A stretch of DNA of 64,000 bases from Aureimonas fodinaquatilis. Lineage in GTDB: Bacteria; Pseudomonadota; Alphaproteobacteria; Rhizobiales; Rhizobiaceae. The DNA lies in contig NZ_VTWH01000003.1 in assembly GCF_008369445.1 (NCBI RefSeq), positions 62,001 to 126,000 on the forward strand, written 5' to 3'. The notes below the pieces were generated by a model. It did no database searches. It was not told the origin of the DNA and saw only the letters and a list, made by a program, of their open reading frames with translations. Below, one piece after another: positions 16,570 through 47,110 of this stretch. Position 1 is the first letter of the stretch, and each line of letters starts with the position of its first letter. The position numbers and the translations under genes are program-made.

Positions 16570-17418
16570 GTGGAAGAGCATGTTGATCCCTTGCCGGGAC
16601 CCAGAGCTGTCATCGGCGAGGGTCCGAGCTTTGATGCAGCACGCGATACTCTGTGGTGGTTCGACATCCCGTCCGGGCGACTGTTTGAGCACCGGTTTGC
16701 CGACAGGCAAACGGTGATGCATGAGTTGCCCTTCATGGCGAGTGCGCTGGCCCGGATCGATGATGAACGTCAGCTTCTGTGCACGGAAAATGGTTTTTTC
16801 ATCCGAACCATTGCCACCGGAGAACTTCAGCAGCATCAGCCCCTTGAAGCCGATGACACAAGCACCCGTTCCAACGATGCGCGCACGCATGTTTCCGGTG
16901 CCTTTTGGGTAAGCACGATGCACAAGGCTGCAGAAGCGGAATGCGGCTCGATCTACTGGTACAGGAAAGGCGAGGTGCGAAAGCTTTTCGACCGGTTGAC
17001 CGTGCCGAATTCTATCTGCTTCTCACCGGACGGTGAGAGAGCCTATTTTTCTGATACACGCAAATCCACGGTCTACACTGTGGCTTTGGATGCCGAAACC
17101 GGCCTGCCGCAGGGCGAACCAGGCATTTTTATTGAAGATATCCAGGGCCCGGATGGCGCAGTGGTTGATAGTCTGGGCAACATCTACATCGCCCGGTGGG
17201 GCGGTTCGCGAATTTCAGTCTTCTCGGCAGACGGTATCCAGGTTCAGGATATTCCTGTTCCAACGGCTCAGCCAACCTGCCCGGTCTTTATCGGGCATGA
17301 CTTTGGTCGTCTTGCAACGACAACCGCCTCCGTCAACCGGAATGACGAGACTGCTGGCTCAACCTTTGTGCTGCCTGGCCGTGTGAAGGGAATTTCCGAT
17401 CCAGCGGTCGTGCTTTAA
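16570..17418 (+). CDS. SMP-30/gluconolactonase family lactonase
   Basis: This 282-residue six-bladed beta-propeller lactonase hydrolyses a sugar lactone to the acid using a divalent metal. The metal Glu lies in VIGEGPSFD, the Asn/Asp ligands in STRSNDARTHVSGAFWV and the catalytic Asp in NSICFSPDGERAYFSD. Blades repeat the D..G.IYIARWGG pattern. The GTG start at 16570 is chosen because GGAGG ends six bases before it; the TTG at 16564 abuts that motif. A lactonase next to an SDR and a dehydratase fits an oxidative sugar pathway: sugar to lactone, acid, then 2-keto-3-deoxy acid. Confidence 0.9.
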   Translation: MEEHVDPLPGPRAVIGEGPSFDAARDTLWWFDIPSGRLFEHRFADRQTVMHELPFMASALARIDDERQLLCTENGFFIRTIATGELQQHQPLEADDTSTRSNDARTHVSGAFWVSTMHKAAEAECGSIYWYRKGEVRKLFDRLTVPNSICFSPDGERAYFSDTRKSTVYTVALDAETGLPQGEPGIFIEDIQGPDGAVVDSLGNIYIARWGGSRISVFSADGIQVQDIPVPTAQPTCPVFIGHDFGRLATTTASVNRNDETAGSTFVLPGRVKGISDPAVVL

Positions 17419-17423
17419 AGCTT

Positions 17424-17451
17424 CTTTGTGCGCTCGAATGACCGCACAAAG
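17424..17451. terminator. Probable bidirectional terminator between the lactonase gene and acnB
   Basis: Arms CTTTGTGCG (17424-17432) and CGCACAAAG (17443-17451) form a 9-bp perfect stem with a 10-base loop between two convergent stop codons. There is no long T-run, so strength is uncertain. Confidence 0.6.
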
Positions 17452-17471
17452 AGCCAGCATATCGTGACGTT

Positions 17472-20261
17472 CTAAAAGTGGACAGACAGCGTATCGATAG
17501 GAGCAGTCTTGGGCGGGGCGAACTTGGTCAGATCAATCCCCTCGACGGCGGCCTTGTATTCTTCAGCGCTGGGCGTGCGGCCAAGAATTGCCGAGAGCAC
17601 CACCACCGGAGTTGACGCCAAAAGGGATTCGCCCTTCTTCTCCGTGCTGTCCTCAACAACCCGGCCCTGGAACAAGCGGGTTGAGGTGGCCAGAACCGTG
17701 TCACCCTTTTCGGCTTTTTCCTGATTGCCCATGCACAGGTTGCACCCAGGACGTTCGAGATAGAGAATATTCTCATATTCGGTCCGGGCGGTGCTTTTTG
17801 GCAGGAGATCATCAAATTCAAAGCCGGAATAGCGCTGAAGGATTTCCCAGTCACCTTCCGCCTTCAACTCATCAATGATGTTGTAGGTGGGGGCAGCGAC
17901 GACCAAGGGCGCCTTGAACTCCACCTTGCCGTCCGTCTTCTCAATATTCTTCAACATCTGGGCAACGATTTTCATGTCGCCCTTGTGCACCATGCAGGAG
18001 CCGACGAAGCCCAGGTCTACCTTTTTGGTTCCGCCGTAATAGGAAATCGGGCGGATGGTGTCGTGGGTGTAGCGGCGCGACACTTCGGCATTGTTCACGT
18101 CGGGATCGGCAATCATCGGCTCGTCAATCACATCCAGATCGACCACGACTTCGGCAAAATATTTTGCATTGTCGTCGGGGGTCAGAGCCGGTTTTTCACC
18201 GGAGCTTATCTCCGCGATGCGCTTGTCCGCCTTGTCGATCAGGCCTTGCAGCGTCTGCGCGGCATTGTCCATGCCCTTGTCAATCATGATCTGAATGCGC
18301 GATTTGGCGATTTCCAGGGACTCGATCAAGGTCTCGTCCTGGGAAATGCAGATGGAGGCCTTCGCCTTCATCTCTGCGGTCCAGTCGGTGAAGGTGAAGG
18401 CCTGGTCTGCCAGAAGCGTGCCAATATGCACCTCTATGATCCGGCCCTGAAAGACATTGTCGCCATGCTGTTTGAGCATCTGCGCCTGGGTCGCATGCAC
18501 CACGTCACGGAAGTCCATCCAGGGCTTCATTGCACCCTTGAAGGTTACCTTGACGGATTGTGGAATTGGCATGGTCGCTTCGCCGGTGGCTAGCGCAAGC
18601 GCCACGGTGCCGGAGTCCGCGCCAAAAGCAACGCCCTTTGACATTCGGGTGTGACTGTCGCCGCCGATGATGATCGCCCAGTCATCCACGGTGATATCGT
18701 TCAGCACCTTATGGATGACATCGGTCATCGCGTGATAAACGCCCTTCGGGTCGCGTGCGGTGATCACCCCGAAATTGTTCATGAAGGACATCAGCTTGGG
18801 AATGTTGGCTTGCGCTTTCCTGTCCCAGACCGATGCGGTGTGGCAGCCCGACTGGTAAGCACCATCGACCAGCGGCGAGATCACCGTGGCCGCCATGGCC
18901 TCAAGCTCCTGCGCGGTCATCAGGCCGGTTGTGTCCTGCGATCCGACAATGTTCACCTTGACGCGAACGTCTGAACCGGCATGCAGCACCTTGCCCGGAG
19001 TGACGCCAACCGCATTGCGGTTGAAGATTTTCTCAACGGCGGTCAGACCCTGACCTTCGATTGCAATTTCCTTGTTCGGAGCGAAGACCGGTGTTGCCTC
19101 GACGCCAAGGGTCTGCGCGGCGAAGGTCTGAAGTTTTTTGCCGAAGACGATGGCGTAGGAACTGCCAGCCTTCATGAACTCCATTTTCTGCGGCGTGAAA
19201 GCGGAGGCTATGTCCACCAGCTCCGCGCCGTTCTCATCACGAAGCTTCCTGTTCTTTGCGTCGATTTTCAGAACCGTGCCTGTTTCGACAGAGAACTGCT
19301 GCTCAAGAACCGGGTTGCCCTCATTGTTCAGTAGCGGCTTGCCGTCCTCGCCAAGTTGCTTGGTCCAGTTTTTCAGGTTGATGCCGATGCCACCTGTCAC
19401 GTCCACCGTGGTGGCGAAGATAGGGGAGATGCCGTTTGTGCCTGCGACGATGGGGGCGAAGTTGACGAAAGGCACATAAGGGCTGGCCTGTTTGCCGGTC
19501 CAGAGCGCCACGTTGTTCACGCCGGACATGCGCGAGGAGCCGACGCCCATGGTGCCTTTCTCGGCAATCATCATGACGCGCTTGTCGGGATGCTGCTTCT
19601 GCAGTGCCACGATTTCCTGCTGTGCCTGAGGCGTGATCATGCACTGGCCGTGCAGTTCGCGGTCCGAGCGGGAGTGGGCCTGATTGCCGGGCGACAGAAG
19701 GTCGGTCGAGATATCGCCTTCGGCTGCTATGAAGGTGACGACTTTTATCTCATCGTCGACGTCCGGCAGCTTGGTGAAAAACTCGGCTTTGGCGTAGCTG
19801 TCGAGAATATTTTTCGCCACGGCGTTACCCGCCTTGTAGGCGTCGCGCAGGCGGAACAAGTCGGCGTCGTAAAGGAAGACCTGGGTTTTCAGAACCTCGC
19901 CGGCCTTGACGGCTATGGCTGCATCAGCGCCGAGCGCCATGTCGAGCAGCACTTCCACGGAAGGCCCACCCTTCATGTGCGAGAGCAGTTCAAGCGCGAA
20001 ATCCGGGGTGATCTCCGGGACGATGGTTTGGCCCAGGACGATCTTCTTCAGGAAGGCCGCTTTGGCCCCGGCCGCGCTGGTTGTGCCCGGCAGCGTATTG
20101 TAAATGAAGAACTTCAGCGCATCGGACCGATGCTCGCTTCCGGCGTCTTCGATCAGAGTGATGATTTCGGCGGTCAGTGCCCCATCATCAATCGGCTTGG
20201 GAGCCAGCCCCTGGCCTTTCCTGCTGTCGATCTCGGCCAGGTAATTCAGGTAAAGGGTCAT
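17472..20261 (-). CDS. acnB: Bifunctional aconitate hydratase 2 / 2-methylisocitrate dehydratase
   Basis: AcnB isomerises citrate to isocitrate in the TCA cycle and can act on 2-methylisocitrate. The protein has 929 residues. The N-terminal AcnB-specific helical domain begins MTLYLNYLAEIDSRKGQGLAPKPI. The swivel domain is followed by the catalytic domains with GGDSHTRMSKGVAFGADSG, and the [4Fe-4S] ligands are expected in VGSCMVHKG and RPGCNLCMGNQ (CxxC). It is longer than the roughly 865 residues of the enterobacterial enzyme. Part of the extra length seems to lie around residues 290-360, where the frame reads smoothly and I see no frameshift. It appears to be monocistronic, convergent with the lactonase gene. 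Confidence 0.95.
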   Translation of the reverse strand: MTLYLNYLAEIDSRKGQGLAPKPIDDGALTAEIITLIEDAGSEHRSDALKFFIYNTLPGTTSAAGAKAAFLKKIVLGQTIVPEITPDFALELLSHMKGGPSVEVLLDMALGADAAIAVKAGEVLKTQVFLYDADLFRLRDAYKAGNAVAKNILDSYAKAEFFTKLPDVDDEIKVVTFIAAEGDISTDLLSPGNQAHSRSDRELHGQCMITPQAQQEIVALQKQHPDKRVMMIAEKGTMGVGSSRMSGVNNVALWTGKQASPYVPFVNFAPIVAGTNGISPIFATTVDVTGGIGINLKNWTKQLGEDGKPLLNNEGNPVLEQQFSVETGTVLKIDAKNRKLRDENGAELVDIASAFTPQKMEFMKAGSSYAIVFGKKLQTFAAQTLGVEATPVFAPNKEIAIEGQGLTAVEKIFNRNAVGVTPGKVLHAGSDVRVKVNIVGSQDTTGLMTAQELEAMAATVISPLVDGAYQSGCHTASVWDRKAQANIPKLMSFMNNFGVITARDPKGVYHAMTDVIHKVLNDITVDDWAIIIGGDSHTRMSKGVAFGADSGTVALALATGEATMPIPQSVKVTFKGAMKPWMDFRDVVHATQAQMLKQHGDNVFQGRIIEVHIGTLLADQAFTFTDWTAEMKAKASICISQDETLIESLEIAKSRIQIMIDKGMDNAAQTLQGLIDKADKRIAEISSGEKPALTPDDNAKYFAEVVVDLDVIDEPMIADPDVNNAEVSRRYTHDTIRPISYYGGTKKVDLGFVGSCMVHKGDMKIVAQMLKNIEKTDGKVEFKAPLVVAAPTYNIIDELKAEGDWEILQRYSGFEFDDLLPKSTARTEYENILYLERPGCNLCMGNQEKAEKGDTVLATSTRLFQGRVVEDSTEKKGESLLASTPVVVLSAILGRTPSAEEYKAAVEGIDLTKFAPPKTAPIDTLSVHF

Positions 20262-21088
20262 GATGCTTCCGACGTAGTGAGTTCTGTGCCACTGACATAC
20301 ATAGTCAGCGGTGCGGATTCAATGGATTCCGACTAATCCGATAGAGGCGGGCGAACAAGGTGCGGCACGGATGTCAAACGGCGCGTCGGCCGGAGGCAAC
20401 CCAACGACAAGATTTTGCAAGTGGATTTTGTCGGTGTAAAGTGGTGGCCTCTTTTGGGCTTGTTAACAATTGTCGCGCGCCAGATGACTGTCCACACTCC
20501 GAGTATGTAAACTGACGAAAATTGTGCACTTGGCGGCTGTGAGATGGCGGGGGAAGATTTGGCAGAATCGGAGGTGTTGACTCTTCGTCGCGGTTAAGCA
20601 CTTGCGCAGGCGTGGATCGAAAATTGGATAGAGACGCCGCAACGGTCGCTCCGTTTTTCACGGACGCGGTGGCTCATGGATGAACTTGGGTAGCTATGCA
20701 TTGCCGAAACATTACGACGCAAGAAATGCAAATCCCAATTGTACGTCCGCCTTAGTCGGGCATGGGATATAGTCCACAGCATCCGGTATGCGCTCCAGCC
20801 AAAGTATGCGACCAAGTTTTACCGATCCGAAGACGATCAGCCGAGCGATGAGGATAAGCAGCGCATTGCTCTCAACCTGAGCCAAGCGTTTCCTTCGAGC
20901 CACAGCAGAATGAAAACGTAAGGTGATTTGAAGCTTGGCCGGAATCATTGTTTCAGCGGGTTTCCTTTATGAAAGATACTTTGCCCTTAGTAGAAACTGA
21001 GATCAGGAATTGTAAAATAAGCGACTGTGCGGGTTTAAACCGGAGCAAGCGGGCGGACGATAATCTAGTTGATGGTCTGTCAGCGATA
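20262..21088. other. Non-coding or degenerate stretch at the left edge of the accessory island
   Basis: This stretch of more than 800 bases has no gene I can support. The first part must carry the acnB promoter. A perfect palindrome TTGTTAACAA lies at about 20460. A short open frame ending at 20921 (tail FYRSEDDQPSDEDKQRIAL) has protein-like composition but no credible start and may be gene debris. Base composition drops in G+C from about 20900 onwards. Confidence 0.5.
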
Positions 21089-21116
21089 TTGACTTCTAAT
21101 TGGGTTATCTTAGGAT
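21089..21116 (+). promoter_or_regulatory. Candidate sigma-70-type promoter of the island operon
   Basis: A TTGACT -35 box (21089-21094) and TAGGAT -10 box (21111-21116) are separated by 16 bases, about 45 bases before the GTG start of the HARE-HTH gene. The -10 box matches the consensus at only four of six positions. Confidence 0.4.
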
Positions 21117-21159
21117 AGCGAGTTTTACGATGTTCAACCAATGGGCGTGAGGGCAGAGA

Positions 21160-22089
21160 GTGAGTTCTTATCTGCAAATTGCAGAAGAGGTCTTGCGTTC
21201 GGCCCGCCAACCACTTTCTGCGCGCGCGATTCTAAAACAAGCATACTCGCTCGAAATTGCGCCCTATCACTTGCACGGCAAAACCCAGCACAAAACGCTG
21301 CAAGCGCGATTGAGCGAAGATATCCTTCAGCGTCGTGAACACAGCCTTTTTTTTCGAACGAAACCGGGGCAGTTCTTCCTGCGGGAGTTTTTAACTGACA
21401 CCTCAATACCCGCTGAGTATCGACAGCCGATCGTCGCGCGACGACGCACTCGCGACCTATTACTTGGGCCAGCGCTCTCGGTAAGCTACAGGTATGCTGC
21501 AAGGCTTCTACAGGCTGATCAGTATGCGGACGCTGATTTGGTCGAAAAGATAGCTAATTCTGGACGTTATCGGTACATCGATCCCAAGAAAGCAGATGAT
21601 GACGACGTGCTGCTTTGGGCCGTGTCCGCCTTGACCCGTCCAGGAAAGATGCTTTCTTATCGATCAGGAAGATATAGGGACGACCGAGATCACTTCGCCC
21701 ACAAAAGGTCAATTGCGTTTTCAACTCTGGTTTCGGAAGCAAACCACACGCTCTTTGATACGCAAAGTCTAGGCGTACCTGATAGTGCGCTGTTTGCGGC
21801 GGCGGCGGACTTAGATATCCCGTTGCCAGAAACATTTTCAGCGCGGGCTACATTCGAACATTATATCCGCTTTTTCGCATGGCAGCCTGAAGCTGACGCA
21901 AAGAAGAGCTTGCTTGCATTTGTAGAGGTTTGTGCTCCTGATTGGTTTGAGCCTACAGCGTCACGACTATCCCTAAATGATCTTTGTTGGCTGGATATGA
22001 GTGTGCCTCCCAATAATTGGGATGATTTCGACCCGCCGTCGCAAACTATACTATCATATTACTTCCCCAGAGCCGCAATGCATGGCTGA
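21160..22089 (+). CDS. HARE-HTH domain protein with possible Nudix-like C-terminal domain
   Basis: The product has 309 residues from a GTG start with GAGGG upstream. Residues 1 to about 75 match the HARE-HTH winged-helix module known from restriction and chromatin proteins (YLQIAEEVLRSARQPLSARAILKQA, then GKTQHKTLQARLSEDIL and a Phe-rich beta wing). After a linker, LSYRSGRYRDDRDHFAHKRS and IAFSTLVSEANHTLFD recall Nudix-like domains in bacterial conflict proteins, but the usual Gly-Gly-His is replaced by STL, and the Nudix REL..E box is degenerate (GVPDSALFAAAADLD). It is soluble, with no signal peptide. It overlaps the next gene by eight bases, so the two are translationally coupled. Hand-counted G+C is near 50%, lower than neighbours, suggesting transfer. 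A defence or DNA-surveillance role is inferred from the HARE-HTH module and island setting; the enzymatic assignment is tentative. Confidence 0.75.
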   Translation: MSSYLQIAEEVLRSARQPLSARAILKQAYSLEIAPYHLHGKTQHKTLQARLSEDILQRREHSLFFRTKPGQFFLREFLTDTSIPAEYRQPIVARRRTRDLLLGPALSVSYRYAARLLQADQYADADLVEKIANSGRYRYIDPKKADDDDVLLWAVSALTRPGKMLSYRSGRYRDDRDHFAHKRSIAFSTLVSEANHTLFDTQSLGVPDSALFAAAADLDIPLPETFSARATFEHYIRFFAWQPEADAKKSLLAFVEVCAPDWFEPTASRLSLNDLCWLDMSVPPNNWDDFDPPSQTILSYYFPRAAMHG

Positions 22090-23557
22090 TCGCCGTAGGA
22101 GAATGCTAAACTCTTTCCAGGCGGGCTATCTCAAATCCGAACTTGAGAGCGGATCAGCCATTAGGAGTAAGCAGGCACTTCAGCAACTCTGTAAAATGTT
22201 TAGAATGGGCGTCGCGCTCCAGCAAGACGACCGCATCAGTATGGAGATCGCAATCCTTGGCGTTCTTAGCTCTGCGGCTTCTGACGAAAAGATCAGGCGA
22301 TGGGCGTTATCCGCATTAACGTATGTGGGGCGCAAAGAAGTTAGCCGTAATGCTGTTCTGCGAGCGATTTCCGATTATCCTGATGAGCCGCAAGTGTTGG
22401 CCGCGGCCATAGCGACTTTGTTTAAATTTGACGGTAACGCGGCCCAAAAAGTCATAACCCATCATGGAGCTTGTACCGCTGAAATGATCGCTCTGTCAGC
22501 GTTGCAAACTACCGACCCTAAACAACTTGATCTGTCGAATCTCAACGTGAACATTGAAAATGCAGAGCCCGTGCCGTTGAAATTGGCATTGCTTCTCGTC
22601 GGCCTTGATCGATCACCAGAAAATATTTTCGATCCTCGGCATTCGAATGCCGAGATAGTTAGGGTACTTGGTGCACACCACGAACCGATCGTTTCCCAAT
22701 ACTCGGTATGGGCTGCTGCGGAGAACCCGCACTTAGGCGCTGCCAATATCGGAATAGACCTTAGAGACCTTTATGGACAGGAGCCGAATGTTCGTTCCTA
22801 TGTCTATCGGCTTTTCGCTGAGGAGAGCGCCGTCTCCTCCCAACGCCATGAGATAATTGTTCAAGGCAGTAAAGATAGCGATAAGGAGGCCCGATCAGGT
22901 TTAGCGATTGGATTGCGGGACAACTTCTATGATGGGCTGGAAAGTGTAACCGTTGACTGGTTTCATGAGGAAGATGACCATGATATAGGCGCACATGTGT
23001 TGGACCACATTATCGCGCAAGCCGAAAAAGTTCCCACATACGAGAAGATCGCAATTGACCATTACGAATTTGCAGCAGGCGATCTGAAGAAGCGGTTTCG
23101 TATGGAAGCTGCAGCGGCAGGCACGAAAATTTACAGCGCGTTCAAGCGCAAGTCGATTGAGCTAGAGGCCGGATTATTTGGGCTAGTGGGAGGTAATGTG
23201 ACCAACAATAATAGCTTCATCAACAATGGCACCATGCAGGGAGCTGTGTCGCAGTCTGGACAGGCCGTAAACCATGGCGAAATGCAGGCAGCTTTAACGC
23301 AGGGTCAAATTCTGGAGTCTCGGAAACTTCTAGATAGGGTAGTCGCGGAAATCGATACTGTGCCGTTATCGGATGAAATAAAGGGCGAGGTCCGACAAGC
23401 TGTCGTTCACGCCAAAGGGCAAACGGACAACGAGACACTAAGTACTGTTGTTGGTGTGCTTGAGAAGGCAGAGAAAGGATTGAAAGCCGTAAGCGGGATG
23501 GCCGACCATGCGAACAAAGTCGGCACACTTGTCCTCGGTCTTTCAGGATTTCTTTAA
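22082..23557 (+). CDS. Alpha-solenoid protein with Asn/Gly-rich linker and C-terminal helical tail
   Basis: The product has 491 residues when started at the ATG overlapping the previous gene (ATGGCTGA). Another ATG at 22103 has GGAG placed very close to it. Residues 1 to about 360 read as paired amphipathic helices of HEAT/ARM type (EIAILGVLSSAASDEKIRRW, then ALSALTYVGRKEVSRNAVLRAI). Around residue 375, GGNVTNNNSFINNGTMQGAV and SQSGQAVNHGEM form a low-complexity Asn/Gly/Gln segment like those preceding effector tails in STAND and abortive-infection proteins. A roughly 90-residue helical tail ends in the apolar VGTLVLGLSGFL, which could insert in membrane or oligomerise. There is no known catalytic motif. 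It is coupled to the HARE-HTH protein and is lower in G+C than the flanks. I do not recognise the family; an effector or scaffold role is inference. Confidence 0.75.
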   Translation: MADRRRRMLNSFQAGYLKSELESGSAIRSKQALQQLCKMFRMGVALQQDDRISMEIAILGVLSSAASDEKIRRWALSALTYVGRKEVSRNAVLRAISDYPDEPQVLAAAIATLFKFDGNAAQKVITHHGACTAEMIALSALQTTDPKQLDLSNLNVNIENAEPVPLKLALLLVGLDRSPENIFDPRHSNAEIVRVLGAHHEPIVSQYSVWAAAENPHLGAANIGIDLRDLYGQEPNVRSYVYRLFAEESAVSSQRHEIIVQGSKDSDKEARSGLAIGLRDNFYDGLESVTVDWFHEEDDHDIGAHVLDHIIAQAEKVPTYEKIAIDHYEFAAGDLKKRFRMEAAAAGTKIYSAFKRKSIELEAGLFGLVGGNVTNNNSFINNGTMQGAVSQSGQAVNHGEMQAALTQGQILESRKLLDRVVAEIDTVPLSDEIKGEVRQAVVHAKGQTDNETLSTVVGVLEKAEKGLKAVSGMADHANKVGTLVLGLSGFL

Positions 23558-23793
23558 TTATAACTGTCAGTGAATTTCATATCGATCAGGGCGAAGTCTC
23601 TTTCTTCGCCTTTTTCCACGTCAATTGCCTTGATGAACCATTGTTCGTCCGGATGCCAATCAGTTGTGCCGTACCAAATTTTTATAGGCAGGATTCTTCT
23701 AACGGAGGTGTCTCCGCGCCAGTTTTTATATACAAACCGAAGCTCTTTCACTGGCTCGCCTAACGTGGTGCTATTGAGAACATTGACCGTCAT
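23554..23793 (-). CDS. Small WYL-like protein (79 aa)
   Basis: This 79-residue product reads LRFVYKNWRGDTSVRRILPI, then KIWYGTTDWHPDEQWFIKAI and EKGEERDFALIDM. That is the core pattern of a WYL-type ligand-binding fold (Arg-rich strand, WYG, HP..QW, ERDFAL) without any DNA-binding domain. WYL domains commonly act as sensors or regulators in phage-defence and CRISPR loci. Its stop overlaps the solenoid gene stop by four bases, tail to tail. No strong Shine-Dalgarno precedes the ATG. It may be a stand-alone modulator, or a widespread small cytosolic protein unrelated to the two plus-strand genes. Confidence 0.65.
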   Translation of the reverse strand: MTVNVLNSTTLGEPVKELRFVYKNWRGDTSVRRILPIKIWYGTTDWHPDEQWFIKAIDVEKGEERDFALIDMKFTDSYN

Positions 23794-24715
23794 ACGAAAT
23801 CCATTGTCAATTCAGTTTGGCGAAAGTTCGGTCTTGGCTAGAGAATGGGTGATCTGGTGGTCGTCGTGAGATGCCGTAATTATTGAGTGTGCCGTTTCTT
23901 GCTTACCAAAAGATAAACAAGAAAATCATCTGGGTTGATGATGGTCGGTCAGGCAATGGCCTTGGGAATGATGGAAAATCCTCGATCTCTGAAATAAGCG
24001 AGGATGATTCAGTCTAAATTACTGAAATTCATATGAAAACTGAGAAAATTTTGGCAGCGGCATGCGTAGCCGTCGTGTAAAGGACGCGGTTTCTCGCCTG
24101 AGGACGTGCGAGGATGGGCCGAAAAACTCTATATTGCAGGCGGTCCTTGCGGCGGGAACTCCTGCTGTAATCGCGGGCGCGATCAATATGGAGATGTCCG
24201 ATGACATTCGATGATCGCCTGCACATGATAATATCTGTGCGGTGGTGATGCAGTGATCCAGGGTATTGCCGCCAAGCGAGTTTTTCGTCTCTTGGGTGAC
24301 ATTGCCCGAAGCTCGCGCGGGCAGCCCGACCGGCCTCGTTGAGATACATGCCGGATGCTCGCACCGCACGTTCCAGGACGTGGTTGTAGAACCTGGGTAA
24401 GGTGGGTGAGTTGATCCTGGGTATGCATGGTTTTGCGCGAGCCGTTTCGAAAAGTTGTTCGGAGAACCAATATGGTTCATCGGCTGTTGCCGCACGTTCC
24501 TGGGACGCTAGCGCCGAAGCTGCGCACCAGTGCGCGTCTTTTCAGCCTGTCGCGCAAATCTGCTGGAACGGCTCGCCGGAAATGAAATATACGTCCGCCC
24601 CGGACGATATTGGAAGGAACTGCAACGCCGCTTCGCTCGCTCTTTGTAGCAAATGCTTCATCCCGCCTGAGGTGGCGCGAGGCGCGTTAATGGTTTCAAT
24701 GAATTGAGAGGGATT
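23794..24715. other. Gene-poor stretch between the island genes and tRNA-Gln
   Basis: More than 900 bases contain no convincing gene. A start-like MKTEKILAAACVAVV at 24032-24079 reads as the beginning of a leader and then stops. On the minus strand, a fragment translating to HLLQRASEAALQFLPISSG and GADVYFISGEPFQQ (about 24541-24660) is protein-like but ends in a stop, followed by another protein-like stretch in the same frame down to about 24030. A hairpin with arms ATCCTCG/CGAGGAT spans 23978-24005. The picture fits decayed genes beside a tRNA. Confidence 0.45.
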
Positions 24716-24789
24716 TGGCTGGGGAACCTGGATTCGAACCAAGACTAACGGAGTCAGAGTCCGTTGTTCTACCCTTAAACTATTCCCCA
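24716..24789 (-). tRNA. tRNA-Gln (anticodon CUG)
   Basis: Read on the minus strand, the acceptor stem TGGGGAA pairs with TTCCCCA (7 bp), the discriminator is G and CCA is encoded (24716-24718). The D-loop contains TTTAAGGGTAGA. The anticodon stem ACGGA/TCCGT encloses CTCTGAC, giving anticodon CTG (codon CAG). The T-arm contains GGTTCGAATCC. The 3' end faces the accessory island, the usual side for tRNA-targeted integration. Confidence 0.95.
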
Positions 24790-24951
24790 GCAGGGCCATG
24801 CCCGAGCAATCAGGCCGACGCGCGGTCTATACAACGCGTAACGCCAATTGCAAAGCAAAAATGACAGATCCAATCCCAAAAGTTCCGCTATACCCTCAGC
24901 CACAGCATCAAGGATTTTTACGCGCAGGCTTCTAAACAACCCAACATTGCT

Positions 24952-24968
24952 ATATTGCAGTGCAATAT
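24952..24968. promoter_or_regulatory. 17-bp perfect palindrome upstream of the MFS gene (candidate operator)
   Basis: ATATTGCA (24952-24959), a central G, and TGCAATAT (24961-24968) form a perfect dyad about 50 bases before the chosen MFS start. Its placement suits a repressor site at the pump promoter. No regulator gene is adjacent. Confidence 0.55.
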
Positions 24969-25019
24969 GCGCTGACTGGTTGCGGTGGTGCGCAGAAATC
25001 TAACATGCGGGAATCAAGC

Positions 25020-26261
25020 ATGCTCTCCTCAGACCAGACTGCCAGACCTGCGGAGCAGCAAGAGGCTGTGTTGCCGCAGAAGGGCGCGAGCGGTTTTGGA
25101 TCTGCCGCATACGCCCTCGCGGCGCTCTCTACGGCGTCCTTTTCGATCGGCGTTGGCGAGTTCGGAATTATGGGCCTGTTGCCCGGCCTTGCCAGTGATC
25201 TTGGAGTTTCCATTCCGCAAGCCGGGCTTCTCGTTACCGGCTATGCACTGGGCGTGGTATTCGGTGGGCCGTTGCTTGCCGCAATGACCTCCCGCATGGA
25301 GCGGCGGCGCTTGCTCCTGGCCATGACGGTGATTTTCATCATCGGCAATCTGGCCTGTGCGCTGGCTCCAACCTACGAGCTCTTGATGGCCGCGCGGGTG
25401 TTTACCGCTCTGGCGCATGCCACCTTTTTTGGCATTGGCGCTGTTATGGCCGCCGACATATCGCCTCCCGGCAAGCAGGCACAGGCAATTTCCCTGATGT
25501 TTGTTGGCATGACTCTGGCAAATGTCATGGGTGTGCCGCTTGGCACCTTCATCGGGCAGGCATTTGGCTGGCGTTCAACTTTCTGGGCCGTCACTGCCCT
25601 TAGTGTCCTGTCCGGCATTGCATTGATGATTTGTCTGCCCAAAAGCTACCCGCAAGCCGATATTCGCTTCAGGGCAGAACTGCGCGCCCTCACCAGGCCG
25701 CAAGTCATGCTGGCCATGTCACTCAGCGTTCTGGCATCCATAGCGTTCTTCTCAGTCTTCACCTACATCACGCCCATGCTGACGGATGTGACCGGCCTTG
25801 CAGAAGCAACGGTTCCCTATGTTCTGCTGGTGTTTGGTGTTGGCCTGACCATTGGCAATCTGGCTGGCGGCAAATTGGCCGACTGGAAGCTGATGCCGTC
25901 CATTATCGGGCTGTTTGCGCTGTTGATCGTCATTCTGCTGGCGCTTTACACCGGCATGGCCAATCCGGCTCTAATGCTTGGCCTGATGTTTCTGTGGGGC
26001 ATTGTGGTTTTTGGGCTGGTGCCACCCGTGCAGATGCGCATTGTTTCGCAAGCCACGGGTGCGCGCAATCTGGCTTCCACATTCAATCAAAGCGCGTTCA
26101 ACCTGGGCAATGCCATTGGCGCATGGATGGGCGCTGCCCTGCTGACAGCGGGTTTTTCCTACCGCCAACTGCCCATTGCGGCCTTGGTGGTGGCCTTTGT
26201 TGCGCTGGGCGTGGCCATTGTCAGTTCGCGGATGCAGCGCCGTGTCGACAGTCAGCTATGA
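25020..26261 (+). CDS. MFS transporter, drug/sugar efflux type (DHA1, YdhP/AraJ-like)
   Basis: This 413-residue inner-membrane protein has twelve predicted segments. The first contains STASFSIGVGEFGIMGLLP. The MFS motif after TM2 is RMERRRLLL, and motif C-like Gly/Pro residues lie in ISLMFVGMTLANVMGVPLG. This pattern fits DHA1 proton-driven exporters of the AraJ/YdhP group. The ATG at 25020 is chosen because GGGA lies eight bases upstream; in-frame starts at 25005 and 24960 are possible, but the latter falls inside the palindrome. Substrate unknown. It appears to be monocistronic, with a convergent terminator behind it. Confidence 0.88.
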   Translation: MLSSDQTARPAEQQEAVLPQKGASGFGSAAYALAALSTASFSIGVGEFGIMGLLPGLASDLGVSIPQAGLLVTGYALGVVFGGPLLAAMTSRMERRRLLLAMTVIFIIGNLACALAPTYELLMAARVFTALAHATFFGIGAVMAADISPPGKQAQAISLMFVGMTLANVMGVPLGTFIGQAFGWRSTFWAVTALSVLSGIALMICLPKSYPQADIRFRAELRALTRPQVMLAMSLSVLASIAFFSVFTYITPMLTDVTGLAEATVPYVLLVFGVGLTIGNLAGGKLADWKLMPSIIGLFALLIVILLALYTGMANPALMLGLMFLWGIVVFGLVPPVQMRIVSQATGARNLASTFNQSAFNLGNAIGAWMGAALLTAGFSYRQLPIAALVVAFVALGVAIVSSRMQRRVDSQL

Positions 26262-26289
26262 AAAAAGGCGTTTGCCGAAAGCAAACGCC
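26261..26289 (-). terminator. Rho-independent terminator for the OmpA-like lipoprotein gene
   Basis: Arms GGCGTTTGC (26267-26275) and GCAAACGCC (26281-26289) form a perfect 9-bp stem with a 5-base loop. On the minus strand six T residues follow (A-run 26261-26266). It can also act weakly on the convergent MFS transcript. Confidence 0.9.
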
Positions 26290-26319
26290 CTTCTGACTCA
26301 TTCCGCATAAAGGCCGAAA

Positions 26320-26982
26320 TTATCCGGCTTGCAGTGGCGAGATGGAAATTTCCACCCGGCGGTTCTGCGCGCGGCCTTCCTCTGTTGCATTGGAAGCAAC
26401 CGGGCGCGACATGCCAAAGCCCTGAATGTTCAGTCGGTTGCCGGAAACGCCCTGCGTTTGCAGGAACTGGCCAACGCTGCCCGCGCGCCGCTGGGACAAT
26501 GCGAAGTTATAGCTTTCGGAACCAACATTGTCGGTGTTGCCTGCAACGTCAACAATGGTCTGGTTGTACTTGTTCAGCACAATCGCCACAGATGTCAGCG
26601 TTGGATAAAACTCCGAGCGCACCTGATCCTGATTGGTTGCGAAGGTGATGTTGGATGGCATGTTCAGGATGATGCGGTCGCCAGAGCGCGTGACGGACAC
26701 GCCTGTGCCCTGCAATTGCGCGCGCAGGTCCGCTTCCTGCCGGTCCATGTAAACGCCAATGCCGCCACCGGTCAGCGCGCCAACACCAGCACCAATCAGT
26801 GCTGCCTGACCGCGGTTGACCCCGGCGATTTCGCCAACAAGCAAACCACCCAGCGCGCCTACGCCAGCGCCGATGCCGGTGCCTGCCGCTGTGCGCGAAA
26901 CCTGCTGTTCATTGGTGTAGGGATTGGTGGTGCAACCGGCCAGAACAGTCAGTGCGGCGCATACAGCCAGAATCTTTTTCAT
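26320..26982 (-). CDS. OmpA-family lipoprotein with glycine-zipper domain
   Basis: This 220-residue envelope protein starts at the ATG of MKKILAVCAALTVLAGC. The lipobox LAGC is cleaved and lipidated on Cys18, with TTNPYT following. Residues of about 35-85 form a glycine-zipper (GTGIGAGVGALGGLLVGEIA and GAGVGALTGGGIGVYM). The OmpA C-terminal peptidoglycan-binding domain has TFATNQDQVRSEF, VDVAGNTDNVGS, LSQRRAGSVGQFL and RRVEISI. It tethers the outer membrane to peptidoglycan; the product resembles YiaD-type proteins. A longer frame upstream (to 27114) has no leader and overlaps an intergenic repeat. A strong terminator follows. Confidence 0.92.
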   Translation of the reverse strand: MKKILAVCAALTVLAGCTTNPYTNEQQVSRTAAGTGIGAGVGALGGLLVGEIAGVNRGQAALIGAGVGALTGGGIGVYMDRQEADLRAQLQGTGVSVTRSGDRIILNMPSNITFATNQDQVRSEFYPTLTSVAIVLNKYNQTIVDVAGNTDNVGSESYNFALSQRRAGSVGQFLQTQGVSGNRLNIQGFGMSRPVASNATEEGRAQNRRVEISISPLQAG

Positions 26983-27015
26983 GAAAGGCTCTTTGATTGG
27001 ACGAAATCTTACAAA

Positions 27016-33961: not shown

Positions 33962-34035
33962 ATTTCACGGATTCCCATTGGAATCACGGGCGGCAGAATG
34001 ACCTCATTCTGCTGAAAGAATGGATATTGCCGTTA

Positions 34036-34872
34036 ATGCTGATACCGGAAAAAGCCCGAAAGCTGGAAATGCTGCAACGGCAATTGGCCGGGGTAACCAC
34101 TGCGCCTGTTGCACCTGACTTGCGCTCATTTGGTGTGGATGCGGCGGACAAGGCCCTTGGCGGCGGCATTCCGGCGGCAGGGTTGCTGGAGGTGCGCTTG
34201 CCACAGCCGCGAGGTGGTGGCTGTGGAGCAGGGTTTTTAACGGCTTTGGCGGTGCTGTTCGGGGCCAGCCGCAAACGGCCTTTTCTCTGGATAGGAGAGC
34301 AGTTTGTGTTTGGTGAGGCCGGGTGGTTTTACCATTCCGGACTTGCAGCCCATGGTCTGGACCCGGCGGCTTTGGCCATTGTGCGCCCGCCGCGTCTGGA
34401 GCAGGCAATATGGGCGGCGGAGGAAGCGGTGGCTTCCGGGGCTGTGGCGCTGGTGGTGCTGGAGCTGTTTGGCAATCCGGCGCGTATGGCGCTGGAAGGT
34501 ACACGTCGTCTGCACATGCGGGCTTTGGCTGGCGGCACCCCGCTGGTTTTGCTGCGTCAGGCGGCAATGGTGCAAACCAGTGCAGCACCCTTGCGCTTGC
34601 GGCTGGCCAGTGCGCCCGCCGCTTTGCCGGAAGATATAGCCAGTCGATGGCGGCTGATTGGCAACCCGGTTTTTGATGTTGAAGTTGAAAAGCTGCGGGG
34701 TGGGCCGCCCGCCCGCTTCCGTGTGGAGTGGAATCCCCATGAATGCTGTTTCAAAACCTGCCAGCCGCATTCTGGCATTGCTGTTCCCGTATCTGCCGAC
34801 CGACAGAATAAGGCGGGCTTGTCTGGGCCGTTTGTGGCGCGTGAACCTGCCGGCCAGCGGCGATGGGCCTAA
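34036..34872 (+). CDS. imuA: ImuA, RecA-like SOS mutagenesis protein
   Basis: This 278-residue RecA/SulA-related protein supports translesion synthesis with ImuB and DnaE2. Family features are the start MLIPEKARKLEMLQRQLAGV, SFGVDAADKALGGGIPAAGL, a degenerate P-loop-like EVRLPQPRGGGCGAG, and RPFLWIG then LDPAALAIVRPPR. It ends in the ARFRVEWNPHECCF block seen in alphaproteobacterial ImuA. The ATG at 34036 is preferred over the TTG at 34027. The 3' end overlaps imuB by 134 bases in another frame, an unusually long overlap. First gene of the LexA-controlled cassette. Confidence 0.88.
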   Translation: MLIPEKARKLEMLQRQLAGVTTAPVAPDLRSFGVDAADKALGGGIPAAGLLEVRLPQPRGGGCGAGFLTALAVLFGASRKRPFLWIGEQFVFGEAGWFYHSGLAAHGLDPAALAIVRPPRLEQAIWAAEEAVASGAVALVVLELFGNPARMALEGTRRLHMRALAGGTPLVLLRQAAMVQTSAAPLRLRLASAPAALPEDIASRWRLIGNPVFDVEVEKLRGGPPARFRVEWNPHECCFKTCQPHSGIAVPVSADRQNKAGLSGPFVAREPAGQRRWA

Positions 34873-36451
34873 GCCTGTTTTGCAGGCAGGCGAAACCGAC
34901 ACTATGGCCGGCCTGTTCCGCGAAGGGCCGGGCAGTGCCCACCATGTGCCGCGCTCTGCCGCTTTAACGGCGCAGCCGGCAAGCCCGTCAACCGGGCTGC
35001 AACCATTGGTGCTTTATGAAAAAGACGCCAACGCGTTTTGCATAACGGCCTGTTGTGAAGCGGCAATGGCAAATGGTGTTCGCCCCGGCCTGACCATGGC
35101 GGAAACACGGGCTCGGTTTCCATTCTTTGCGTTTGAACCGGCAGAACCTGCTGCCGATGCCCGGTTGCTGGAGGCGATTGCCGACTGGTGTGATGGCTAT
35201 ACGCCACTGGTGGCGCTGGATAAGCCAAACGGCTTGCTGCTGGACATTTCCGGCTGTGCACATCTGTTTGGTGGTGAAGCCGCCTTGCTGGACGATCTTG
35301 TCAGAAAATTGGTTGCACAGGGGTTTAAACCGCAGGCGGCCATTGCCTCACAGGCAGGCCCGGCTCTGGCACTCGCCGCTTATCGGCCGGGGTTCATTGT
35401 GCCGGAAACAGCCGCAGTTGAACCAATTCTTGCGCCTTTGCCCGCCCGGGCTTTGCGGTTTGGCGCGCAGACCACGGCTGTTCTAAGCCGGCTGGGGCTG
35501 AAACAGGTGGGCGATCTTCTGGCTTTGCCGCGTGCGGGCCTTGGCCGGCGGTTTGGTGCCGATTTTATGGACCGGCTGGATATTGGTCTTGGGCGGGCTG
35601 AGCGTCCTTTGAATCCGCGCCGGCTGGTGCCGCAGCTGATTCATGAGCGGCGGCTGTGCGAGCCGATTGGCCGTATGGAAGATATTGAAGGGCTGACCCT
35701 GCATCTGGCCCAAATGCTGAAGCCGGATCTTGAACGGCGCGGACAGGGCGCACGCCATCTGGAACTGGCACTTTTCCGGGTGGATGGCGTGGTGGACAGG
35801 GTTGAACTGCGCACGGCCATGCCCCTGCGCGACCCGGAGCGCATTCGCCGCCTGTTTGCAGAACGGTTGAAGGCAATTGGCGATGAGCGGGATGCCGGTT
35901 TCGGCTATGATCTTTTGCGCCTCTCCGTGCTGTCTTCTGCGGCAATGTCGGATCAGCAGCAGAATTTTACTGCCGGTGTTGATGACAATTCCGAAGCGCT
36001 GGAAATTCTGATCGACAGATTGGCGGCGCGGCTGGGAGTGGAAAGCGTTCAGTCTTTACAGCCTGTGGCATCACATTGGCCGGAAAAGGCGCAAAGATTG
36101 CAGGCGGGTCTTGCAACGGCTTCTGTGCAGCTTGCTCATGTGCCGGACTATGCGCCCAGGCCATTACGGCTTTTGACGCCGCCGGAAAAAATTGAAGCCA
36201 TGGCCGTGCTGCCGGAAGGAGAACCGATCCGCTTTGTCTGGCGCAGGGCCACGCACCGGGTGGTGCGGATGGAAGGGCCAGAGCGGATTGCGCCGGAATG
36301 GTGGCAACAGGCGGTGCCGGATATGCCGGCCATGCCTGCGCGGGACTATTTTCGCATCGAGGATTCAGAAGGACGCCGTTACTGGATGTTTCGTCTGGGT
36401 GATTATGAAACGCAGGAGCCGCAATGGTTTCTGCATGGAATTTTCGCATGA
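34739..36451 (+). CDS. imuB: ImuB, Y-family polymerase-like SOS mutagenesis protein
   Basis: This 570-residue catalytically inactive Y-family polymerase homologue bridges DnaE2 to the beta clamp. It opens with RILALLFPYLPTDRIRRACLG, where active Y polymerases carry the DxDxFF(Y)A motif. The palm region LLLDISGCAHLFGGE also lacks the acidic pair of an active enzyme. A little-finger-like region follows around residues 290-400 (RPLNPRRLVPQLIHERRL, then LHLAQMLKPDLERRG). The start is the ATG at 34739, inside imuA; no later start keeps the conserved first strand. Its stop overlaps the dnaE2 start as ATGA. Confidence 0.93.
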   Translation: MNAVSKPASRILALLFPYLPTDRIRRACLGRLWRVNLPASGDGPKPVLQAGETDTMAGLFREGPGSAHHVPRSAALTAQPASPSTGLQPLVLYEKDANAFCITACCEAAMANGVRPGLTMAETRARFPFFAFEPAEPAADARLLEAIADWCDGYTPLVALDKPNGLLLDISGCAHLFGGEAALLDDLVRKLVAQGFKPQAAIASQAGPALALAAYRPGFIVPETAAVEPILAPLPARALRFGAQTTAVLSRLGLKQVGDLLALPRAGLGRRFGADFMDRLDIGLGRAERPLNPRRLVPQLIHERRLCEPIGRMEDIEGLTLHLAQMLKPDLERRGQGARHLELALFRVDGVVDRVELRTAMPLRDPERIRRLFAERLKAIGDERDAGFGYDLLRLSVLSSAAMSDQQQNFTAGVDDNSEALEILIDRLAARLGVESVQSLQPVASHWPEKAQRLQAGLATASVQLAHVPDYAPRPLRLLTPPEKIEAMAVLPEGEPIRFVWRRATHRVVRMEGPERIAPEWWQQAVPDMPAMPARDYFRIEDSEGRRYWMFRLGDYETQEPQWFLHGIFA

Positions 36452-39400
36452 GCACGCCCGGCGGCAAAACCGGCTTTTTTGCCATGCAAAAAGGCTTTTG
36501 TGAAATTGGCGTTTCATCGGCATTTTCCTTTCTGCGCGGCGCTTCCAGCCCGTCTGAACTGGTTGCCGCTGCCAGTGCTCTTGGGCTTGGCGGCATAGGG
36601 CTGGCAGATCGCAACACTGTGGCCGGAGTGGTGCGGGCCTATCAGACTGCACGCGATACCGGCATGGCATTTCGGCCGGGGGCAAGGCTGGTTTTTGCTG
36701 ATGGCACGGCGGATATACTGGCTTATCCCCGCAACCGGGCAGGGTGGGGGCATTTGTGCCGTCTGCTCAGCCTTGGCAATCTGCGCACCAAAAAGGGTGA
36801 TTGCCAGTTGTTTCTGGCAGATTTGCTGCAATGGGGCGGCGATATGCAACTGGCGCTTCTGTGTCCGGATGGGTTGGCATTGCCGGATTGGCAGACCGTT
36901 GCCCGCCCGGTTAAAGTCACGCTGGCAGCGCTGATGAACACATTTCCTGGCTCTGTCTGGCTGGCCGGTTCTGTGCGCCATGATGGGCAGGACCAGAGGC
37001 GGCTGGCCCGTGCAGCATCATTGGCGGCAGAGGTGCAAGTGCCATTTCTGGCCACCAATGATGTGTATTACCACATTCAGGAACGGCGCATGTTGCAGGA
37101 TGTGGTCACGGCCATTCGCGAGCATGTGACCCTGCAGGAGGCCGGGTTTCTGCTGGCACGCAATGCGCAAAGGCGGCTTTGCGCAACAGCGGAAATGGAT
37201 TTTCTGTTTCGCGAATATCCGCATGCGGTGGATGAAAGCCGCCGGTTTTTTGCGCCGTTGAACTTTGATCTCAAAAGCCTGCATTATGAATATCCCGATG
37301 AAGGCTTGAAACTGAACCGCAGCCCGGCGGAAGAGCTTTTTCGTCTTGCCCGTGAGGGCGCATATTGGCGCTACCCCAATGGCGTGCCGGACAATATCTG
37401 GCGCGAAATTGACCGGGAAATGGCGATTATCATAGAGCTGCAATATGAGCCCTATTTCCTGACCGTGCACCGGATTATGGAAGCGGCCCGCCGCATGAAC
37501 ATTCTGTGTCAGGGCCGCGGTTCAGCCGCCAATTCCACCATATGCTACTGCATGGGCATAACGGCGGTGCCGCCAGAGGATGGCAAAACGCTGTTTGAGC
37601 GCTTTATTTCGCCCGAGCGCGGCGAACCGCCGGATATTGATATTGATTTTGAGCATGAGCGGCGAGACGACATCATCAACTGGATTTATGAAGAATATGG
37701 CCGCGAGAATGCGGCCATTACCGCCACGGTCATTTCCTATCGCTCACGTTCTGCCGGGCGCGAGGTGGGCAAGGTTTTCGGGCTTTCCGAAGATGCCTTG
37801 TCGGCTTTGTCGGCATCGGTCTGGGGCACATCGCACTCGGCCCCCGGTGAATGGGAGGCGCAGGCAGCAGGGCTGTCGACGCAGGATGCCACCACCACCA
37901 ATATCCTGCATTTTGCCAGCGAACTGGCCGGTTTTCCCCGGCACCTTTCGCAGCATGTCGGCGGGTTTGTGCTGACCAGAGGTCGGGTGGATGAGGTCGT
38001 GCCAATCATGAACACCGGCAGCAAAGGCCGGTTGATTGTTGAATGGGACAAGGATGATCTGGACGAGCTGAATATTCTGAAAATCGACATATTGGCGCTG
38101 GGCATGCTGAGCTGCCTGCACCGCTCATTTGATATGCTGAAGCAGCATTATCCGGAAGATTTTTGCGGGCAGGAGCTGGAGCTTGGTTACTTTCCGAAAG
38201 AGCCGCCTGATGGTCCTGTGTGGAAAATGACGCATCGGGCCGACACGCTGGGCGTATTTCAGATTGAAAGCCGGGCGCAGATGTCCATGCTGCCCAAGCT
38301 GAAACCCAACGAGTATTACGATCTGGTCATTCAGGTGGCGATTGTGCGGCCCGGGCCAATTCAGGGCGATATGGTGCACCCCTATCTGAAGCGGCGGATG
38401 GCTGTTGAAAAGGTCACCTATCCGAAAGAGGAGTTGCGCGCGGTTCTGGAACGGACCTGCGGCGTGCCATTGTTTCAGGAACAGGCCATGCAGATTGCCA
38501 TGGTGGCGGCGGGTTTTTCCGGCACCAAGGCAGATGGCTTGCGCCGCGCCATGGCAACATTCAAGCGCACCGGTGAAGTGGGCAATTTCCGGGATGATAT
38601 GATCAATGGCATGCTGCAAAATGGTTATGAGCAGGATTTTGCGGAAAGATGCTTCCGGCAGATTGAAGGCTTCGGCGAATATGGTTTTCCGGAAAGCCAC
38701 GCCGCGTCCTTTGCGGTGCTGGTCTATGATTCCGCCTGGATCAAATGCCACTATCCCGATGTGTTTGCCGCAGCCCTTCTGAACTCCCAGCCACTGGGCT
38801 TTTATGCCCCGGCACAAATTGTGCGTGATGCGCGCGAGCATGGGGTGGAGGTGCGCCCGGTCTGCATCAACTCCTCGCAATGGGACCAGACATTGGAGCC
38901 CACAGGATTTGATGCAACGCGCATCCACAGGCAGCACGCAGAAATGGCCGGGGCAATTCGCACAAGCCATGCCATGCGACTTGGCTTTCGGCAGGTGAAA
39001 GGGCTTTCGGAAGCTGCCATGAAATTGCTGGTAGAAGAGCGCGCCAGACGACCCTTTGACTCGGTGCGTGAAGTCTGGCTGCGCACCGGCCTGCCACGCG
39101 CCACCATTGCCCGGTTGGCGGATGCCGATGCTTTTCACATCCTGGGTCTTGGCCGTCGCGATGCCTTATGGGCAGCAGAGGCTTTGGACAAGCAAAGTGC
39201 GGTGGAACATCTGCCATTGTTTGTCGCAATGGAGGCAGACCCGGTGCAGGATGAGCCCGACGCGCATTTGCCACCAATGCCTTTGGGTGAGGAGGTGGTG
39301 AACGACTACCGCTACCTTTCGCTTTCACTCAAAGCGCATCCGGTGTCGTTTCTGAGGCCGGAACTGGTGGCACAGAATGTCATGCCCAACAGCCGTTTGC

Positions 39401-39768
39401 CACAGTTGCCTTCCGGTCGCCGGGCCTGTGTTGCGGGATTGGTGTTGATCCGCCAGCGCCCCGGCTCGGCAAAGGGGGTTATCTTCATGACGCTGGAAGA
39501 TGAAACCGGCATTGCCAATGTTGTTGTCTGGCCAAAGACTTTTGAAATATTTCGCGCCGTGGTGCTGGGTGGCCGTTTTTTGAAAGTGCGGGGGCGCGTG
39601 CAATCCAGCCACAATGTTGTTCACCTTGTGGCTGAAGAGATTATCGACATGACATCCATGCTGGGGCAGTTGCAGCAGAAGGGTGGAAGGGATTCCACCC
39701 CTTACCGCGCCCGCAATGTTGGCGATGGCAGCCGCCCTGTTGGCGTGTCAGTCCAGAATGGCCGGTAG
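36448..39768 (+). CDS. dnaE2: Error-prone DNA polymerase III alpha subunit DnaE2
   Basis: DnaE2 performs damage-induced translesion synthesis with ImuA and ImuB. This 1106-residue C-family polymerase has an N-terminal PHP domain ([20 protein letters not shown], then [15 protein letters not shown]). The catalytic palm contains [17 protein letters not shown] and the Asp triad region [33 protein letters not shown] follows, then [19 protein letters not shown] and a C-terminal OB-fold ([20 protein letters not shown]). It starts at the ATG overlapping the imuB stop. Its last 21 bases overlap the 3' end of hutU, which is convergent. Confidence 0.96.
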
Positions 39769-46412: not shown

Positions 46413-47110
46413 CAAGTCCAACCCGGTCCTCTTTTCGCAGCATCAAGGATGAGCTTGCGCGGCGCATTGGTGAGCGGGTCTGGCAACCGGGAAGCCTGAT
46501 ACCGGGAGAAGAAACATTGGCGCGCGAGTTTGGCGCAGCGCGAGCAACGGTAAACCGCGCACTTCAGGAACTGGCGCAGGCCGGGCTGGTAGAGCGCAAA
46601 CGCAAGGCGGGCACCCGGGTGGCCGCAAACCCTGTGCGCCAGGCGCGGTTTTCCATTCCCGTTGTTGGCGATGAAATTGCGGCGCTGGGCAAAAGCAGCC
46701 GCTACCAGTTGCTGAGCCGGCAGGTGCGCCATGCGCAAAAGGCAGAAGCAACCCGCATGGGAATAAACCCCGGTGAAAAACTGTTGCACATTGCCTGCCT
46801 GCATTATGCCGATGATGTGCCCTATCAGTATGAGGACCGGCTGATCAATCTTGCCACAGTTCCACGCGCGGAACATGAGGGCTTTGAGTCAGTTGGCCCC
46901 AATGAATGGCTGGTCAATGAAGCGCCGTTTTCACGCGCGGATTTTACTTTTCTTGCCGCAGCAGCCAGCGAGAAGGAAGCCAGGTTGCTGAACATAGCGC
47001 CCGGGCAGCCGGTGTTTGTTGGCGAAAGACTGACATGGCTTCTGGCAAAGCCAATCACCTATGTGAGAATGGTGCATCCGCCCAGCCACCGGCTGCACAC
47101 TAAGCTGTAA
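46409..47110 (+). CDS. hutC: Histidine utilisation repressor HutC (GntR/HutC family)
   Basis: This 233-residue regulator has an N-terminal GntR winged helix (LIPGEETLAREFGAARATVN, then RALQELAQAGLVERKR) and a C-terminal UTRA ligand-binding domain. UTRA residues are in LLHIACLHYADDVPYQYEDRLI and the tail VFVGERLTWLLAKPITYVRM. The expected inducer is urocanate. It overlaps the hutF stop as ATGA and probably represses both divergent hut operons at the dyad near 45002. Its 3' end overlaps the convergent RTX gene by 11 bases. Confidence 0.94.
   Translation: MTSPTRSSFRSIKDELARRIGERVWQPGSLIPGEETLAREFGAARATVNRALQELAQAGLVERKRKAGTRVAANPVRQARFSIPVVGDEIAALGKSSRYQLLSRQVRHAQKAEATRMGINPGEKLLHIACLHYADDVPYQYEDRLINLATVPRAEHEGFESVGPNEWLVNEAPFSRADFTFLAAAASEKEARLLNIAPGQPVFVGERLTWLLAKPITYVRMVHPPSHRLHTKL

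Follow-up and report, generated by a model that had tools for sequence, protein, structure and literature searches.

Bacterial immunity often joins sensors to interchangeable effectors, and several described systems resemble in part the locus which we report here. In the transcription factors NrtR and AraR, whose signals are ADP-ribose or arabinose, a box-less Nudix domain is combined with a winged helix (PMC4666351). Protein A of our locus likewise has a box-less Nudix fold, a putative ligand pocket, next to a DNA-binding winged helix. It differs from these regulators in that the order is reversed, the winged helix is a HARE-HTH domain and the partner gene encodes B, a HEAT protein whose end is of effector type. 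In defence loci HARE-HTH has been proposed to read modified DNA (PMC10853773, PMC12839542 and PMC11037411), and there it is also fused to restriction endonucleases linked to Dnd and BREX. A shares the HARE-HTH domain with these fusions, but no nuclease domain of Pfam is matched by A or B, HARE is joined to Nudix and the output lies in a second protein.

The CHAT domain is listed for the type III-E CRISPR and Borvo defence systems (PMC10952713). In a sister clade of our locus B ends in such a domain (PF12770) with its His and Cys motifs; however the sensor and the HEAT carrier are different, and B of the window has no CHAT domain. Type IV Thoeris is composed of a TIR protein and a caspase-like protease, a nucleotide signal being wired to the protease (PMC12847820). 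The same logic is proposed below for our cassette, and ThsB-TIR and caspase genes are found near two loci of the CHAT type, but neither TIR nor caspase-like domains are reported in A, B or the third protein C (Pfam, E up to 1), and the sensor fold is Nudix. WYL domains, as in BrxR, are proposed binders of ligands or nucleic acids (PMC9122601). C is likewise a small WYL-like protein beside a putative defence gene; however, with 79 aa it is too short for the multi-domain plan of BrxR, it is convergent to B and it scores below the WYL cut-off.

No described system with this make-up was found in PADLOC, NCBIfam or the literature covered, to which subscription papers mostly do not belong. The words HARE and CHAT do not appear in the main text of PMC7159879, which deals with effector-swapping conflict systems. 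The locus is a real, conserved and mobile sensor-effector cassette, undescribed as far as these searches reach.

Layout of the locus and its proteins

The window is the whole 64-kb stretch of DNA analysed; it comes from Aureimonas fodinaquatilis (GCF_008369445.1, NZ_VTWH01000003.1), whose own genome is G000 in our sample. A block of three ORFs, A, B and C, is confirmed at 21160-23793, and its features are collected in Table 1. A preliminary description of this DNA had reported two plus-strand genes overlapping by 8 bases, with a HARE-HTH and a solenoid-plus-tail product. ORFs, Pfam and AlphaFold2 agree with it in all these points. The overlap corresponds to the ATG of B at 22082, which gives 491 aa; an alternative GTG at 22001 would give 518 aa. 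The convergent mini-protein C, as also described, overlaps the end of B by 4 bases, and its likeness to WYL stays below the Pfam cut-off. The lower G+C of the block is borne out as well: it is 0.497, against a mean of 0.563 (sd 0.024) for 2634-base windows over the 64 kb. Six of the 307 windows are equally low, among them those which overlap the island. The block had been placed beside a tRNA: a tRNA-Gln is indeed present, but 922 bases beyond C, so that "beside" is a loose word. The genes which flank the locus look ordinary; we take them to be an aconitase and an MFS transporter.

Table 1. Features of the locus, with positions in the window
Feature	Position	Strand	Description
A+B+C unit extent	21130..23830		74% DNA similarity to Agrobacterium cavarae L006, blastn
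ORF A	21160..22089	+	309 aa, GTG start; HARE-HTH and box-less predicted Nudix fold; proposed sensor
HARE-HTH winged-helix domain of A, residues 5-77	21172..21390	+	Pfam PF05066, E 4.8e-8
Predicted Nudix-fold domain of A, residues 103-305	21466..22074	+	catalytic box absent
ORF B	22082..23557	+	491 aa; HEAT solenoid and C-terminal tail; putative scaffold and effector
Alpha-solenoid of B, residues 11-362	22112..23167	+	AlphaFold2 model, 14-locus alignment; common to tail and CHAT versions
Asn/Gly-rich stretch of B, residues 364-403	23171..23290	+	low model confidence
Four predicted helices of B, residues 407-490	23300..23551	+	occupy the CHAT position of the sister clade
ORF C	23554..23793	-	79 aa WYL-like mini-protein, convergent to B
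tRNA-Gln (CTG)	24716..24789	-	ARAGORN; far edge of the low-G+C stretch; context, outside the unit

The HARE-HTH domain of A has a Pfam score of 33.7 bits, above the cut-off of 25.9, and the A homologues of loci L013 and L009 also exceed the PF05066 cut-off. The C-terminal half of A is predicted to have a Nudix fold, which places it in the Nudix superfamily by its fold. The catalytic box GX5EX7REUXEEXGU of active hydrolases is absent from all A proteins (16/16). It is for this reason that we consider the Nudix fold of A a putative ligand binder which probably does not hydrolyse its ligand. The domain order of NrtR, with Nudix first and the winged helix second, is not found in A.

Neither A nor B matches a housekeeping family in the Pfam and NCBIfam scans, a result in favour of the preliminary description, and no toxin-antitoxin family is matched in the same two collections. 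The sole NCBIfam row for the cassette, an arginyltransferase (E 0.055, 12.7 bits against 267), is meaningless. PADLOC-DB 2.0.0 has no model which matches A or B of the window (E up to 1), and a search of solved structures by sequence gave nothing convincing.

B shows a single Pfam row (E up to 1), HEAT_2, with 26.8 bits (E 6.4e-6), just below the cut-off of 27.7; PF12770 is not matched. In the AlphaFold2 model (10 rows, mean pLDDT 81.7) the helical solenoid is followed by the low-confidence stretch and the four helices given in Table 1. The VIA-align rows for B cover residues 5-336, which do not include the tail. A membrane-pore reading of the tail was tried and rejected: over the last 100 residues the 19-residue hydropathy peaks at 0.79 in the window, and the peaks of six tail proteins lie at 0.69-1.68. 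Only L013, with the highest value, may come near a membrane segment. The membrane effector of the preliminary description is not supported by these values. Profile scans did not find an enzymatic end in the tail; PADLOC gives a weak match to PDC-M14B (E 0.0014) for the tail of L013. An amyloid-signalling reading of the Asn/Gly-rich stretch was also considered.

A conserved pair with an exchangeable end

B is found directly downstream of A in 16/16 loci of the A family, which lie on plasmids, on contigs classed as viral and on chromosomes. A rare co-occurrence of the two genes would have spoken against the preliminary description, and this is not what we see. The 16 loci are the window, Agrobacterium cavarae, G102, G041, five distinct plasmid loci and seven loci on viral contigs. 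L007 and three near-copy Agrobacterium plasmid records are counted as one locus, and L020-L023 are repeats of counted contigs. The count includes L011, with an incomplete B, and Zymomonas L009, which matches A over 24% of the query. Three distant HARE proteins with other neighbours (L004/L066, L005/L067 and L025/L068) are excluded; B is absent by blastp in L004 and L005, and in L068 as judged by the ORF list and a Pfam scan of four ORFs.

Searches of plasmids with A and with B separately returned the same 8 records. Viral contigs have 7 A loci, with B directly downstream in 7/7; a B search of these contigs gave 4 loci, all on contigs of the A set, and a scan with B of the window alone gave no match. 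We also scanned 84,980 species with B, each represented by one genome, by short exact peptide patterns which detect close relatives only. A single relative was found, Agrobacterium cavarae, with 81% identity in the best segment; A is 84% and C 73% identical in this species. Blastn of positions 17001-27000 of the window against L006 gives a match at 21130-23830 and otherwise just 27 bases. The similarity is limited to A+B+C, which have therefore been inherited or moved as one block.

Between the window and A. cavarae pS/pN is 0.739 / 0.083 in A, 0.794 / 0.101 in residues 1-336 of B and 0.656 / 0.150 in 74 codons of C; these ratios are rough because synonymous sites are near saturation. The order kept in all 16 loci and the mostly synonymous changes indicate that the cassette is more than a chance arrangement. 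Two copies of B appear damaged. In A. cavarae (L006 8001-9472) its frame is broken while A and C are open, either by decay or by an assembly error. In the Sulfitobacter locus (L011 7073-9810) B is represented by its first ~100 residues, with an ISL3 transposase gene behind them; A is open.

The A-B system is rare. At E 1e-5 A is found in 5/151 genomes of the family, three of them with a full-length A. The phylum sample gives 2/398, the own genome and another HARE protein in G676. The B profile matches 1/337 genomes of the own class, the own genome itself. A HEAT profile gives 0/368 in the class of G492, a sample which contains no positive control. No A homologue is present in 50,697 phage records.

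The end of B has two forms. In seven loci (L003/L026, L007, L008, L015, L016, L017 and L019) it is a CHAT domain. The three B proteins of this type which were scanned (L007, L015 and L019) all exceed the PF12770 cut-off, the HFSGHG (His) and Cys motifs are present in 7/7, and the generic chat and SAVED_CHAT models of PADLOC match these ends. In eight loci (the window, L002/L027, L006, L009, L010, L013, L014 and L018) the end is a tail, an Asn/Gly-rich stretch followed by helix-forming sequence, with its last part in an odd frame in L014. L011, where the transposase gene follows the start of B, is left without effector class. As judged from these sequences, the end of B appears to be exchangeable: it is a linker with a helical tail here and a CHAT protease in the sister clade. 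The tail module is strong in just two of the 151 family genomes, G000 and G102, with weaker matches in G094 (E 3.3e-4) and G058 (E 1.4e-3). In plasmids it is found only in the Paracoccus record already in the set.

A tree of 15 A proteins, which omits the too divergent L009 and the distant HARE proteins, separates 7 tail rows from 7 CHAT rows across one branch with support 99/97. Label shuffles match the split in 2 and 0 cases of 500. The split fits a joint evolution of sensor and effector, and equally one old swap followed by shared descent. The tree gives no proof of contact between A and B, because one old swap fits as well as repeated exchange.

C is associated with the tail version. It is present in 5/8 tail loci, window included, in 0/7 CHAT loci, and it is absent in L011. 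A one-sided exact test gives 56/3003, about 0.019, a value which ignores shared ancestry. Its homologues in L006, L027, L013 and L010 are convergent and lie right downstream of B. Together with the block shared with A. cavarae, this upholds the suggestion that the mini-WYL gene belongs to the tail variant. C is not obligatory, since it is missing from 3/8 tail loci. Its score against WYL PF13280 is 19.2 bits (cut-off 21.8, E 0.0012), which leaves it outside the family; PADLOC gives it a WYL row (E 0.0022), and phrog_3715 is matched at 85.8 bits. The C profile matches 5/151 family genomes, two of which are the tail-type G000 and G102. Three of the six matches of this profile lie inside frames which are longer, 241-291 aa. 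C is therefore no common chance neighbour. The own genome has a second C-like sequence (G000 contig C2 219193-219372, L057), within a 291-aa frame.

Genomic setting

The plasmid loci are carried by conjugative or other plasmids, and L008 is found near repABC plasmid replication, integrase and CcdAB genes. On viral contigs the neighbours include terminase and major head protein genes (L017), an integrase (L016) and NinB (L014); the phage-type genes of L013 and L018 are less informative. Near the chromosomal copies, which are the window, L026 and L027, the ORF lists showed no gene that we noticed as belonging to a plasmid or phage.

Defence genes had been expected in the neighbourhood. They are present at three CHAT loci: ThsB-TIR and caspase genes lie near L007 and L015, and an HsdR gene adjoins L019. 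None was seen for the window or the tail loci, whose neighbours were scanned in part. On the viral contig of L015 (324-8598) and on the Ti plasmid of L007 (5356-14101), metallophosphoesterase and further CHAT genes also stand around A-B; these stretches are perhaps a larger shared protease island.

The tRNA-Gln and the MFS gene occur together, as in the window, in 4/20 relatives of the same genus (G845, G853, G854 and G851). In the other 16/20 their matches are far apart or on different contigs. On the A-B-C side of the tRNA these four relatives (L058-L061) lack A, B and C and show no DNA similarity to the window, over about 2 kb in L061 and 7 kb or more in the other three. Among 61 genomes only 4 others match most of the aconitase gene, which lies on the opposite side of A, and none of these 4 belongs to the same genus, so that the variable stretch has no fixed left edge. 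The link of the cassette to the tRNA is suggestive only. A tRNA-borne element was considered and set aside: the direct repeats in 20240-24850 include no copy of the tRNA end, and no integrase-like ORF is seen for the island in the ORF lists, by eye.

Elsewhere in the window, ORFs which by eye resemble ImuA, ImuB and DnaE2 are found at 34027-39768. A DnaE2-like ORF, again by eye, also adjoins A-B in G102 (L027 10013-13276). A 1174-aa ORF at 47100-50624 has repeated segments of the GGxGxD type and by eye looks RTX-like.

Possible function and distant relatives of the sensor

We give about an even chance to the reading that A and B, with or without C, form a mobile conflict system of two or three genes, probably directed against phage, in which one type of sensor is joined to exchangeable effectors. 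The anti-phage role is the likeliest reading, argued from association. From the defence system of the preliminary description we retain the conserved pair, its non-housekeeping nature, some defence neighbours and the tie of C to one variant; the membrane effector is not supported.

A would be a sensor with two inputs: HARE would read modified or invading DNA, and the dead Nudix pocket would sense a nucleotide-like ligand. At rest A would keep B silent. Upon a signal the solenoid of B may change shape or assemble, and its terminal module would be freed. In the sister clade the freed CHAT module would cut cell proteins. In the tail clade the Asn/Gly-rich stretch may drive an assembly of helical tails which stops the infected cell. 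C could be a small binder of nucleic acids or ligands which tunes or restrains the tail version.

Other explanations start from the same observations. A could be an NrtR-like transcription factor of its own operon: the Nudix domain would bind a metabolite, HARE would leave or bind the promoter, and B would act alone, so that no A-B complex is needed. NrtR and AraR do pair a box-less Nudix with a winged helix (PMC4666351), and A and B overlap in the manner of an operon. On the other hand the winged helix comes first in A, and the clades of A follow the ending of B, a fact which a single old swap explains too. We consider this regulator rather unlikely. A still smaller probability is given to a toxin-antitoxin-like module for plasmid or prophage maintenance or for competition, which would keep the element from being lost or would act on its rivals, and not on lytic phage. 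The eight plasmid records, the repABC, integrase and CcdAB neighbours of L008 and the phage genes at the viral-contig loci agree with such a module. They are opposed by the three chromosomal copies, which have no noticed genes of this kind, and by the proteins themselves, both of them large and without a match to a toxin-antitoxin family.

The least probable in our opinion, and quite improbable, is an ordinary function in stress or DNA metabolism which merely resides on mobile DNA and has no immune role. No activity has been identified for the tail, and the flanking genes of the window look ordinary, as this explanation would have it. However the end of B is exchanged for a CHAT protease with intact motifs, as happens in conflict systems, and the recurrent mobile setting with TIR, caspase and HsdR neighbours is also typical of them.

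If the reading as a conflict system is true, a reader of modified DNA together with a dead Nudix pocket would be a new input layer. The sensor would then link two questions that are mostly treated separately, how foreign DNA is recognised and by which nucleotide signal an infection is reported. The CHAT and tail clades offer a natural comparison: the protease output can be assayed in order to find the trigger, and what is learned in the CHAT clade may then be used on the tail and the mini-WYL gene.

A wider version of the conflict-system reading is more tentative, and we hold it possible at clearly less than even chances. HARE with a mostly dead Nudix would be a general immune sensor of both DNA and a nucleotide-like signal, and the effectors supplied by overlapping partner genes could be exchanged: they would be CHAT proteases, phosphorylases or nucleosidases of the PNP type, or a self-assembling helical tail, with the WYL-like mini-protein as a clade-specific controller. 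A broader class of sensors is suggested by three further HARE matches, distant and with other neighbours, in G083, G104 and G676, although three sequences are a small number of examples. The HARE genes of G083 and G104 each overlap a gene for a protein with a C-terminal PNP_UDP_1 domain, which scores above the cut-off. The two PNP_UDP_1 partners (L066 and L067) are 25% identical over 611 columns and show no HEAT homology to B. The HARE gene of G676 (L068) is found near SIR2, Ham1 and methyltransferase genes.

The pairs of HARE and PNP_UDP_1 genes (L066 4142-6968 and L067 4567-7298) both stand between LepA-like and hydantoinase-like genes, named by eye. Their proteins are only 25-31% identical despite the same flanks, and the site is a possible insertion hotspot. 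The HARE-HTH protein at L068 4357-8273 contains a Nudix-like segment as well as a part which resembles AAA kinases.
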